From an uncultured Pirellula sp. (GTDB taxonomy: Bacteria; Planctomycetota; Planctomycetia; Pirellulales; Pirellulaceae), in NCBI GenBank assembly GCA_903820735.1, contig CAIJIZ010000674.1, positions 1 to 32,081 on the forward strand: DNA of 32,081 nucleotides. Direction: 5' to 3'. Below the pieces are notes generated by a model, which was not told the DNA's origin, did no database searches, and saw only the letters and a program-made list of their open reading frames with translations. Positions 8,352 through 23,385 of the stretch are shown here, piece by piece. The position numbers and the translations under genes were made by a program. Position 1 is the stretch's first letter, and each line of letters opens with the position of its first letter.

Positions 8352-8677
8352 GGCCAAGACTCCTCCATGAATCCTACTTGCAAATCCTTCTTGCCAAGAA
8401 TCCTTCTTGCCAAGAATCCTTCTTGCCAATCAGCGACAACAATTGGGGTAGCAACGTTGATTGGGTACCATAGCACAGAGAGTCAATTTGGGTAAATAGC
8501 AGAATCCCACTCGAAGCAATGGGTGAACGAAGCCCCGACGGGCTCGGAGCACTATTCGATGTGGGGCGCTGCGAAGGGATTAACGCGAGGAGTTATGCCC
8601 GATGGTCGATGGGCATGTGCAGCGTTGAAGAAAAAAAAGGCTCCCGGAGGTGAACGAGTCCCAGGGGGGACGGAGGA
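8352..8677. other. Gene-free stretch upstream of the DUF4332 gene
   Basis: Apart from the 16-bp repeat array at its left end I see no credible gene here. Its right half holds a nested inverted repeat: CGCTGC 8567-8572 pairs with GCAGCG 8619-8624, enclosing ATGCCC 8595-8600 with GGGCAT 8611-8616. It also holds most of the minus-strand terminator-like hairpin. The 80-codon plus-strand ORF at 8523 has a Lys/Glu-rich low-complexity product and crosses both structures, so I do not call it. Confidence 0.6.
8383..8430. repeat. 16-bp tandem repeat, three copies, upstream of the DUF4332 gene
   Basis: aatccttcttgccaag occurs at 8383-8398 and 8399-8414, with a third copy at 8415-8430 differing in the last base. 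A degenerate partial copy (aatcctacttgc) precedes them. The array sits just upstream of the DUF4332 start, where promoter or leader sequence is expected. It creates the false N-terminal extension MARRILGKKDSWQEG in the ORF track. Confidence 0.93.
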
Positions 8678-8890
8678 CTACGAGCTACATTTCCGGGAGC
8701 CAAAGGTTTGTACATTGACTCTATGCAATCGGTCAGCGGAAAGTCGCGAAATCAAATCCGTTTGATTCGCGAAATCCCTCGATCCTTGTCCACACCGAAT
8801 TACCACCGAGCACTCAAACCTAAGTTTGAAACACCCGCCGACAATCTCGTCATCAGAAGGGGGCACATCCATGTGCCAACTTCTGATACC
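8567..8890 (-). ncRNA. Candidate structured RNA region (hairpin cluster), competing with a small ORF
   Basis: Several strong hairpins lie close together. ATCAGAAG/CTTCTGAT (8852-8859/8880-8887) encloses a 2x2 internal loop, then GGCACA/TGTGCC with a 4-nt loop. TCAAAC/GTTTGA (8814-8829) has a 4-nt loop. An arm of about 12 bp at 8744-8772 (TCGCGA-TCAAA type, one bulge) also has a 4-nt loop. A perfect 10-bp stem (8639-8648/8692-8701) follows. On the minus strand the last stem runs into eight Ts, which makes that strand the likely transcript. The inner nested repeat at 8567-8624 lies beyond this T-run and may be separate. I do not recognise 6S RNA, RNase P RNA, tmRNA, SRP RNA or a known riboswitch. 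A minus-strand ORF overlaps most of it, so this may instead be coding sequence with a terminator. Confidence 0.35.
8631..8701 (-). terminator. Terminator-like hairpin with T8 tract on the minus strand
   Basis: Read on the minus strand, GGCTCCCGGA pairs perfectly with TCCGGGAGCC and is followed by eight consecutive Ts (A8 at 8631-8638 on the plus strand). The 43-nt loop is long for a simple terminator and contains its own small GTCCC/GGGAC-type arm, so it may be the 3' end of a structured RNA. It ends transcription coming from about 8.7-9.1 kb. Confidence 0.6.
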
Positions 8891-8959
8891 GTCCAGCTTG
8901 GGAAGCGAGACTCGAACCTGCTGACCTTGCAAAATCGATTTTCCAAAGAGCATGACCAT
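8678..8959 (-). CDS. Small hypothetical protein (weakly supported)
   Basis: From ATG 8959 this gives about 93 residues beginning MVMLFGKSILQG; the frame stays open upstream to 9094. Codon choice (TCG, CGA, TTG, GTC) resembles the neighbouring genes. GQQVRVSLPKLDG and VGGCFKLRFE loosely recall the beta strands of PilZ-like domains, but the RxxxR and D/NxSxxG motifs are not evident, so I do not name a family. In favour: the minus-strand terminator begins at its stop codon. Against: the reading crosses several strong hairpins, other frames in the region are also open, and no good Shine-Dalgarno spacing is seen. Confidence 0.28.
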   Translation of the reverse strand: MVMLFGKSILQGQQVRVSLPKLDGIRSWHMDVPPSDDEIVGGCFKLRFECSVVIRCGQGSRDFANQTDLISRLSADRLHRVNVQTFGSRKCSS

Positions 8960-9094
8960 CGATCGTGGGCGATCCTTCGCCTCGCCGTTCGACGACGGGG
9001 CAAAGGTTAAAAAAAACCGATGCCCCAGGTCAACATCGATTTGTAGGAATTTCCATTTTTCAACAATCCTTTGTATGCCACTTTGTAAAAACAA

Positions 9095-9717
9095 TCACCA
9101 CATCTCCGCAACCTGCCACTTTTGCTTCGCCCAAAGTGAGATTGCTATCATTTCAAACTGAGACTTCGGCAGTTTTTTTCAGCCTTTGCAAAGCGAAGAA
9201 TTCATTGCGACGCCTCGCTGATCATTCTGCTAGAGGCTGGAATGGGAAATTGGGGCATATACATCGACATCCATTTGGTAAACTAGCGAGCTTGCATCGG
9301 TCCTGAGGTTTTGGGTATAAGCCATCTCGACAGGATCGGAGTCGAATTCCGGGACTTGCTCGAGTTGACATTCGTTTTGGTACGCTGATTGCAACTTGGG
9401 TACGTTCGATGCGAAACGAAACGGGTACCGCATGCCACAACGTGCAAACACCCGCAACACCCGCATCATCGGTATAAACGGTAGGAGACCAAATTCGTTG
9501 AATTGTTGTAGAGATGTGACCGATGCAACGAGACGCTCGCGAAATGCGTTGTCTCTTTGCAAAGTCGCCCTGACCCAAAAGGCCTGGCCTGTACGGATGG
9601 TCTCTCTCTGCGACATGGACTGCGAAGAATGAATGGTGGATTTTTTCAGCTCCGCTGAACCACCCGCGAGTTTTTTAGCAGTCCAACCAACGAAGTATTT
9701 CACGGGAGATCTTGAAG
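9095..9717. other. Stretch of 600 bp with no confident gene
   Basis: It lies between the hairpin cluster and flgM and presumably includes the flgM promoter. A short stem AAACTG/CAGTTT with seven Ts (9155-9179, plus strand) could be a weak terminator. A 9-bp tandem duplication (acacccgca twice) is at about 9448-9465. A minus-strand frame of about 127 codons starting MSQRETIRTG is open across 9230-9620 but matches nothing I know and has no ribosome-binding site, so it is not called. Confidence 0.5.
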
Positions 9718-10008
9718 ATGCATATTTCGAATCAGTTTTCAGTGTCCGGAGTAGATGCAGTTCGCTCAACAGCAAAGGCTGCCGCACCAGCGGATACACA
9801 AGCCGCTGCCTCAACCGGATCGATCCAAGAACCTGTTGATCAACTCGAGCTTTCCGCAGAAGCTCTCGAAGTATCGCAAGCTTCTATCAGCGGATCGTTC
9901 CGAGCCGATAAAGTCGCTCAAATGCGCGAAGCAATCGCTTCCGGAAAATACGACACCGATGAGATGCTCGAAAAAGCCTTCGACCGAATGCTTGATCGAT
10001 ATCTGTAA
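9718..10008 (+). CDS. flgM: FlgM-like anti-sigma-28 factor
   Basis: A 96-residue protein with a low-complexity Ala/Thr/Gln N-terminal half and a helical C-terminus: FRADKVAQMREAIASGKYDTDEML followed by a short terminal helix. The R-x-D-K-V-x-x-M-R-x-A-I-x-x-G-x-Y pattern is the FlgM signature, which binds FliA (sigma-28) and holds back late flagellar genes until FlgM is exported. The ORF-track start at 9712 is a TTG two codons upstream. ATG 9718 has GGGAG nine bases before it and is preferred. No flagellar structural gene is in the window. The stop codon sits inside a 13-bp tandem duplication. Confidence 0.8.
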   Translation: MHISNQFSVSGVDAVRSTAKAAAPADTQAAASTGSIQEPVDQLELSAEALEVSQASISGSFRADKVAQMREAIASGKYDTDEMLEKAFDRMLDRYL

Positions 10009-14452: not shown

Positions 14453-15583
14453 ATGGCGATCCTAAAAATCTTTAGCTTCCTTCTGAGTGCGATCGCGATA
14501 ACCGCACCCTTCTCAGGGTGCCAGCCATCAACTTCGAACAATGAACTCAATTCAAAACCAAAAGAAACAACTGTGAACTCCACCAACTCGCATACGAAAC
14601 TTGTTTCAACCTCCTCAAAACCACGCTGGAGCATTGCTATCCACGGTGGAGCCGGCGGTGACCTCGACCGATGGAGCCCTCAGCAGCGTCAAGCTCGAAT
14701 CGACGGTCTGCAACGCGCCCTGAGTAAAGGAAAGTCGATGCTCAGCAATTCAGCCAATGCGATCGATGTTGCAGAAGCCGTCGTGCGAGTGCTTGAAGAT
14801 GATCCAAATTTCAACGCAGGACGCGGAGCTGTCCTGAATGAAATTGGGGAATACTCCCTCGATGCAAGCTTGATGGACGGCTCGGACCTCTCGTGCGGAG
14901 CGGTCGCAAACATTCGCAAATCCAAAAACCCTATCTCGCTCGCTCGCGCTGTTCGAGATAAAACTCCACACGTGTTCTTGGTGGGCGACGAAGCTGACGC
15001 ATTTGGAATAGAAGCCGCTTTACCTACAGAAACAGCAGATTACTTCAAAACCCAAGAGCAAATCGATAGCTGGAACGAATGGCGTAAACGTCAAGACGCA
15101 AAGAAAAACACCACTTCAAGAAACGATCATAACAAACCAGAAGACCGTTTGTTCTACCTCGGAACGGTCGGCTGCGTTGTGATGGATGATCAAGGCGCGT
15201 TAGCGGCCGCTACCAGCACCGGAGGACTACTCGGCAAGAAATACGGGAGGATCGGGGATACTCCTATCATCGGTGCCGGAACCTACGCGAATAACAAGAC
15301 ATGTGCCGTAAGCTGCACTGGCATCGGTGAACTTTTCATCCGAAATCATATCGCATCAGCCGTTTCTTCCCGACTGGAATTTCTAAATGAATCACTTGAG
15401 CAAGCCTCTCGCTATGCGATTGAGAAGACTCTACCAGTCGACTCCGGTGGACTGATTGCAGTCGATGCCCAAGGAAACATCGAGACGATCTATAACACCC
15501 CGATCATGGCGCGCGGGCAAGCTAACAGCGAAGGACTCTATCGTGTGGGCTTGGCCGACTGGGTCGACGGAGAACCTAAATGA
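14453..15583 (+). CDS. Isoaspartyl peptidase / L-asparaginase (Ntn-hydrolase, T2 family), probable lipoprotein
   Basis: A 376-residue plant-type asparaginase/isoaspartyl dipeptidase. The N-terminus ends in the lipobox-like FSGC (Cys near residue 23), followed by a Ser/Asn/Thr-rich linker, so it is probably lipid-anchored outside the cytoplasm. The catalytic domain opens with IAIHGGAGGD. Thr238 in YLGTVGCV is the expected nucleophile freed by autocleavage after Gly, followed by AAATSTGG, GRIGDTPIIGAGTYA and CTGIGELFIR, all conserved in the family. It should cleave beta-aspartyl (isoaspartyl) dipeptides and asparagine. Cytoplasmic IaaA proteins are usually about 320 aa; the extra length here is the lipoprotein leader and linker. 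It pairs logically with the M28 peptidase upstream for use of exported or extracellular peptides. Confidence 0.92.
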   Translation: MAILKIFSFLLSAIAITAPFSGCQPSTSNNELNSKPKETTVNSTNSHTKLVSTSSKPRWSIAIHGGAGGDLDRWSPQQRQARIDGLQRALSKGKSMLSNSANAIDVAEAVVRVLEDDPNFNAGRGAVLNEIGEYSLDASLMDGSDLSCGAVANIRKSKNPISLARAVRDKTPHVFLVGDEADAFGIEAALPTETADYFKTQEQIDSWNEWRKRQDAKKNTTSRNDHNKPEDRLFYLGTVGCVVMDDQGALAAATSTGGLLGKKYGRIGDTPIIGAGTYANNKTCAVSCTGIGELFIRNHIASAVSSRLEFLNESLEQASRYAIEKTLPVDSGGLIAVDAQGNIETIYNTPIMARGQANSEGLYRVGLADWVDGEPK

Positions 15584-15738
15584 TTGGCTGGTAATGCGCA
15601 CGCTCCTCCTGGTTCGATGCGAAGCCCCAGCAAAATCCCTGCAAAGCCCCACAGCCAAAAAGATCGCTCTAGCGAACCTCACAGCCAGCTAGTTGTCATG
15701 GTTGCACGAAAGCCGGCTTAAGGAACGCGCATTAGCGG

Positions 15739-22851: not shown

Positions 22852-23385
22852 CTATGCACAGCGTTCCATCGGCTCAGAGATGATCATCGCTGAACTGCTG
22901 GCAACTGGCGTCAAACCCGGTTCGCTTGAACCGCTCGCTACGATCTCCAAAAGCTCACTGACATGCAATTCGCTTTCCGAGGACAAATGCTGCGAAGAGG
23001 GTGAATTCGAAGATTCGCCGGTTTTCGTACCTGCAGCGTGCGTACCTACAGCGTGCGTACCGCCACTGAGTAACGCTTTGGCAAAATCCCGAAGCGACTG
23101 ACGAGCCATCACTCGCTCTGCGACCGTTGCTTCCCCAACACTCGCCGTTCCGGACTTGACCCCTCCGCGATCTTTCTTCGCCTTGACTCCCCCTACCCGC
23201 TTGGACTTCGTCCCTCTAGGCTCCGAATCAATCTCTACTTCAAGCAACTCCTCACGCATCACCAGCATGTCCGAAGGTGCTTCGATTCCGATCACTACCC
23301 TGCCAGGCAAAACCCTGCTGACGGTAATCGTGATGTTCTCGCCAATAACAATCTTTTCACCTGCATAACGACTTAATACTAGCAT
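22852..23385 (-). CDS. csrA: CsrA-family RNA-binding regulator with long C-terminal extension
   Basis: Residues 1-58 are CsrA: MLVLSRYAGEKIVIG, ITITVSRVLPGRVVIGIEAPSDMLVMREEL. The conserved first-strand Leu/Arg and the Arg of the last strand (RNA contact positions) are present. AAGGAGG eight bases upstream fixes ATG 23385; the ORF-track extension to 23862 is leader sequence. CsrA normally has 60-80 residues, but this protein has 177. Its tail starts with a basic segment (KSKRVGGVKAKKDRGG), includes a 5-residue repeat (GTHAV GTHAA GTKTG) and ends in a Ser/Glu-rich helix-like part. CsrA dimers bind GGA in hairpin loops and control translation, including that of flagellin in other bacteria. No fliW or flagellar gene is next to it. 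Confidence 0.9.
   Translation of the reverse strand: MLVLSRYAGEKIVIGENITITVSRVLPGRVVIGIEAPSDMLVMREELLEVEIDSEPRGTKSKRVGGVKAKKDRGGVKSGTASVGEATVAERVMARQSLRDFAKALLSGGTHAVGTHAAGTKTGESSNSPSSQHLSSESELHVSELLEIVASGSSEPGLTPVASSSAMIISEPMERCA
23026..23063. repeat. In-frame 15-bp repeat inside the csrA tail
   Basis: gcgtgcgtacctaca (23036-23050) is followed by gcgtgcgtacc and preceded by the similar cgtacctgca, about 2.5 units. Because the unit is 15 bp, the reading frame is kept and the protein shows the repeat GTHAV, GTHAA, GTKTG. Confidence 0.8.

Follow-up and report, generated by a model that had tools for sequence, protein, structure and literature searches.

We identified a previously uncatalogued small-RNA gene that is common to hundreds of planctomycetes and whose product is probably a trans-acting small RNA, a planctomycete functional counterpart of CsrB/RsmY/RsmZ that captures CsrA. 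The gene was found in a stretch of 32,081 nucleotides from an uncultured Pirellula sp., which is analysed here as a whole and is referred to as the window. The gene itself, its conservation, its structure, the enrichment of GGA in its hairpin loops and the presence of CsrA genes in every sampled genome are established. A conserved gene for a GGA-hairpin RNA occurs in most Pirellulales. Should the proposed function hold, control of CsrA by RNA would have originated, or persisted, in a distant phylum, next to FliW and several CsrA copies per genome.

Structure and predicted promoter of the RNA gene

An earlier sequence-only reading of this DNA had described a cluster of strong hairpins and proposed a structured minus-strand RNA outside the known families, and both the structure and the absence of an Rfam family match were borne out. 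The named elements are all present: the perfect 10-bp stem (8639-8648/8692-8701), after which the minus strand reads T8 (8638-8631), the two-part stem at 8852-8887 with its UGGA tetraloop, the arm at 8744-8772 with its CGGA tetraloop and the 6-bp hairpin at 8814-8829. These hairpins exceed chance, with the 3' hairpin folding at -30.8 kcal/mol versus -18.6 +/- 2.7 in shuffles (z -4.5) and the 372-nt stretch reaching z -3.1 versus shuffles. The limits of the RNA had to be revised: the 5' start lies farther upstream, where there are an extra AGGA hairpin (8981-8968) and a promoter at 9033-9004. The inverted repeats at 8567-8624, which had been included in the cluster, are outside the RNA, located 3' of the terminator and with no visible conservation in relatives. 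The features are listed in Table 1.

Table 1 Features of the RNA gene and two other genes in the window.
Feature	Position	Strand	Details
Noncoding RNA, ~367 nt	8631..8997	-	start inferred from promoter, end from T run
Predicted promoter	9004..9033	-	-35 TTGACC (9033-9028), 18-bp spacer, -10 TAACCT (9009-9004)
Upstream element TTACAAA, a possible UP or activator site	9082..9088	-	nearly invariant in the genus alignment
GGA hairpin 1, GGCGA-AGGA-UCGCC	8968..8981	-	
GGA hairpin 2, GGCACA-UGGA-UGUGCC	8862..8877	-	lower stem extends to 8852-8887
Hairpin UUCAAAC-UUAG-GUUUGAG	8813..8830	-	loop without GGA
AAGGAU, additional GGA motif	8782..8787	-	outside any perfect hairpin
GGA hairpin 3, GAAUCAAA-CGGA-UUUGAUUU	8749..8768	-	longer arm 8744-8772
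3' terminator-like hairpin and T8	8631..8701	-	inner stem AGUCCU/GGGACU (8679-8657), C-rich loop 8673-8663
flgM	9712..10008	+	divergent neighbour, outside the RNA; Pfam FlgM E 2.4e-8
csrA-family gene	22852..23385	-	Pfam CsrA E 6.8e-17; ATG at 23385 after AGGAGG

DNA searches of relatives returned two conserved blocks on the same contigs, one at 8631-8711, found in nearly all genus members, and one at 8992-9043, which stands at about the expected distance from the first. In the genus alignment the upstream block corresponds to a sigma-70-type promoter, TTGACC-N17/18-TATCTT. Each of the 20 genus homologues, and the majority of those from the order, have the ATCGNNNTTGAC motif and a spaced -10, which is TATCTT or TATTCT in most relatives where the window copy has TAACCT. 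The length between the promoter block and the 3' hairpin block is variable, and transcripts of ~223-460 nt are predicted for the genus homologues. The promoter and the terminator-like end are, as judged by sequence conservation, features of a free-standing gene, and we infer that the RNA is transcribed from its own promoter. Farther 5', TTACAAA and TTTTCAAAA are conserved about 20 bp apart (window 9082-9125; equivalents in L002-L020), and the pair suggests a transcription-factor or UP site. When the alignment of the genus was inspected by eye, upstream of the promoter, for the TGTAAG-N6-CTTACA box associated with BarA-UvrY/GacS-GacA control, it showed TTACAAA and TTTTCAAAA and no full palindrome.

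GGA motifs are enriched in hairpin loops

Several GGA motifs in hairpin loops, a feature of CsrA-binding regulatory RNAs, were found in this RNA. The 20 genus homologues contained 40 hairpin loops with GGA, compared with 6.5 in dinucleotide shuffles (maximum 12 in 100 sets), and when all 64 triplets were used as control, GGA ranked first by far in the genus (37 versus 4.0). In 33 homologues from other families GGA likewise headed the enrichment (51 versus 9.1). A count restricted to NGGA tetraloops with four or more closing pairs gave 45, with 13 for the next triplet, and these tetraloops comprised 25 different stem/loop combinations, the commonest being ACA-NGGA-UGU. As a control, E. coli CsrB was passed through the same test and gave 9 GGA loops versus 1.4. 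Such counts are not independent events because the homologues are phylogenetically related, although their stems differ, and one order homologue (L052) had no GGA loop.

The window copy has three perfect NGGA-tetraloop hairpins; most of the remaining copies have one or two. In GGA hairpin 2, ACAUGGAUGU differs by one letter from the CsrA SELEX core ACARGGAUGU. Taken by itself, the window RNA has a GGA excess that is either significant or borderline according to where the RNA is presumed to start: the excess was reached by 1 of 200 shuffles with a start at 8997 and by 14 of 200 with a start at 8990. Three GGA loops were attained by 3 of 860 tiles across the 32-kb window, and two of these tiles were the RNA gene. 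The sole other 296-nt tile with three GGA hairpin loops is located at 15358-15653 on the minus strand.

A conserved central domain outside the genus

In other families the body of the RNA consists of a central domain, CCACGUGGAUGGGUCUGCA-hairpin-UGCGGACC-RCGAAGC-[CCGCCGGCANGGANGCCGGCGG]-ACGCUUCG. The base-pair covariation that would mark a structured RNA was seen in this domain of the relatives, for which RNAalifold gave 20 pairs, 11 of them with two-sided changes, and all five covariation measures beat 500 of 500 shuffles and every slid control. Both GGA motifs of the domain were invariant or nearly so. The central-domain model R3 alone matched 14 of 249 class genomes, and in the 11 matched genomes with a 3' hairpin position also listed, the R3 match was just upstream of the hairpin; because some of the matched genomes were relatives of training sequences, these matches are support and not independent proof. 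R3 gave no match on the body of the window RNA itself, and the body in the genus has diverged, with only the GGA hairpins retained.

A second conserved module, the 3' hairpin

A covariance model of the 3' hairpin, R1, was searched in 297 sampled Pirellulales genomes and matched 245 of them, including 183 of the 207 good ones, almost always once per genome. The good genomes without a match, about 12%, reflect gaps, divergence or true loss. Model R2 matched a family of another order in the same class (f21) with E down to 7e-11, and in the f21 copies GGA motifs and a promoter-like TTGACC are present. Elsewhere in the phylum, beyond the class, R2 gave only matches with E > 1e-5, which were treated as noise. 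A pattern search through named genomes yielded at least 118 loci; with two exceptions these fell in planctomycete or unclassified-bacteria records, with genera including Bythopirellula, Rhodopirellula, Botrimarina, Thermogutta, Rubripirellula and Mariniblastus. The two non-planctomycete pattern matches (Holophagaceae UBA692 and Neoroseomonas) were given no confirmation by R2.

The stem of the 3' hairpin is kept across families, with two pairs changed on both sides, and its sequence is conserved far more strictly than termination would require. Across 20 families the outer arm GCTCCCGGA and the loop GTCCT..CCCCCCT hardly vary, and they are far more conserved than the GGA stems. Sequestration of CsrA gives no account of this extreme conservation, and the near-invariance suggests sequence-specific pairing or protein binding. 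It is somewhat unlikely that the RNA acts by base pairing through its invariant C-rich 3' hairpin (GUCCU..CCCCCCU, anti-Shine-Dalgarno-like), with CsrA on the GGA hairpins as chaperone or regulator and not titrated. There is a precedent for such pairing in SR1 of B. subtilis, cited in PMC9029176 as a case in which CsrA can promote sRNA-mRNA pairing, but the GGA hairpins are the other constant feature of the RNA and, in the domain of families f2-f20, are as invariant as the 3' loop.

The conserved structure also bears on whether the locus encodes a protein, the rival explanation raised by the sequence-only reading itself. That the hairpins reflect a minus-strand coding sequence followed by a terminator is scarcely credible. 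An ORF of 138 codons does exist at 9094-8678, but it has no Pfam match and no clear protein conservation, its best match (28% identity, E 8e-5) lying within a stretch that is homologous at the DNA level. Against coding, moreover, the RNA promoter falls inside the ORF, the conserved 3' hairpin shows 1- to 5-nt indels between relatives, and compensatory base pairs occur in the relatives.

CsrA, FliW and the proposed function

CsrA genes were found in all 297 sampled order genomes, with 1-15 per genome, and as CsrA is universal in the order, its co-occurrence with the RNA has no discriminating power. The known antagonist of CsrA, FliW, was found in 54 of 60 relatives. The source genome has CsrA whose RNA-binding residues are intact: all four copies keep L4 and R44, both critical for CsrA RNA binding (PMC7652899), and the window copy (22852-23385) keeps L4, R6 and R44. 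The product of the window csrA gene is presumed to be the type of partner protein for the RNA. This paralogue, one of the four csrA copies, has an unusually long low-complexity C-terminal extension.

Since the RNA carries the hairpin-loop signal of CsrA, it probably soaks up CsrA. It would be transcribed from its own promoter and end at the strong terminator-like hairpin; its NGGA-tetraloop hairpins would serve as CsrA binding sites and capture CsrA-family dimers, leaving less free CsrA, and CsrA-regulated mRNAs would be relieved by this capture. A single RNA has one to three strong GGA hairpins, where CsrB has GGA in nine of its 14 loops; it would thus accommodate roughly one or two CsrA dimers and, to act as a sponge, would have to be abundant (or of high affinity).

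The GGA tetraloops might in principle bind a protein other than CsrA. This is improbable, as the loop and its closing pairs match the CsrA SELEX consensus RUACARGGAUGU, in which GGA lies in a hairpin loop (PMC7652899), and CsrA genes are present in all order genomes sampled. As for the 3' hairpin, its C-rich loop may pair with G-rich target sites, or it may bind a protein. We tentatively consider, with the balance still against it, that the capture of CsrA is one half of a bifunctional RNA class spanning at least two planctomycete orders, in which the GGA hairpins would capture CsrA and the CCUNNGCCCCCCU loop of the 3' hairpin would pair with G-rich, Shine-Dalgarno-like sequences or bind a dedicated protein. 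If this is true, CsrA control and direct pairing would be joined in one molecule, in bacteria that carry FliW.

Relation to known RNAs

The RNA appears to work like CsrB/RsmZ while being unrelated to them in sequence and outside the Rfam CsrB, CsrC and Rsm families. Rfam at the gathering threshold gave no family match in the window, including CsrB, CsrC and Rsm, and at E<=10 it gave only chance-level pieces, among which the sole CsrB/CsrC/Rsm echo was RsmV (an 18-nt piece with one GGA hairpin, E 2.7). The near-misses STnc240 (E 1.3) and suhB (E 7.4) were well below their own gathering scores. No tRNA or tmRNA was matched by ARAGORN or Rfam, and a tRNA T-arm-like stretch at 8905-8925 on the minus strand, GGTTCGAGTCTCGC, was without support from either.

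Like CsrB and CsrC of E. coli, the RNA is free-standing and of similar length (about 367 nt, versus 369 nt for CsrB), has GGA in hairpin loops and an intrinsic-terminator-like end, and occurs with CsrA in the same cell. Unlike them, its body contains far fewer GGA motifs (8, versus 22 in CsrB), it has a conserved C-rich 3' hairpin, no BarA-UvrY box was recognised by eye in the genus alignment, its distribution is planctomycete, and FliW is present in most relatives. The few GGA hairpins and the ACA-NGGA-UGU-type tetraloops resemble those of RsmX/Y/Z/W/V of Pseudomonas, whereas there is no family match over the length and the overall architecture differs. SR1 of B. subtilis offers a likeness in the possible joining of CsrA sites with a pairing region, which is putative here. 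FliW would act on the same protein, CsrA, but is itself a protein and acts allosterically via the CsrA C-terminus (PMC7652899). Capture of CsrA by an RNA has so far been known mainly from Gammaproteobacteria. BarA-UvrY, which drives CsrA-antagonist RNAs, has been regarded as a hallmark unique to that class, and FliW has been suggested as the planctomycete route (Zere et al. 2015, PMC4682653).

A literature search found no planctomycete small RNAs or Csr RNAs within its coverage, outside which most subscription journals and preprints lay. Three covariance models are now offered for this RNA, which is absent from Rfam 15, and an almost invariant 3' hairpin has been brought to light. As a single-copy gene, it is amenable to deletion or overexpression in cultured planctomycetes, among which Bythopirellula polymerisocia Pla144, Rhodopirellula solitaria CA85 and Botrimarina colliarenosi Pla108 have it.

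Gene neighbourhood

At 19 of the 20 genus loci, flgM lies upstream of the RNA in divergent orientation. Beyond the genus the RNA has other neighbours, with no flgM found in the stretches examined, so that it is not the leader of one gene. In the window a DUF4332 gene (8429-5676) lies downstream of the RNA on the same strand, as would be expected if the RNA were its long 5' leader or attenuator. This is very improbable and largely ruled out by synteny: the DUF4332 orthologue of relatives lies elsewhere with its own conserved upstream element, and the RNA stays beside flgM in the genus and is found elsewhere in other families. The 3' end of the RNA, a strong hairpin followed by a T run, likewise argues against a DUF4332 leader.

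The element upstream of the DUF4332 gene is 25 nt long (AGTCAATTTGGGTAAATAGCAGAATCC, 8481-8505 in the window), is conserved where the gene lies elsewhere (L218-L220), and is probably the DUF4332 promoter or leader. Short tandem repeats, TTCTTGCCAAGAATCC, occur at the start of the DUF4332 ORF (8376-8429); homology begins at residue 16, and the true start of the gene is probably downstream of these repeats.
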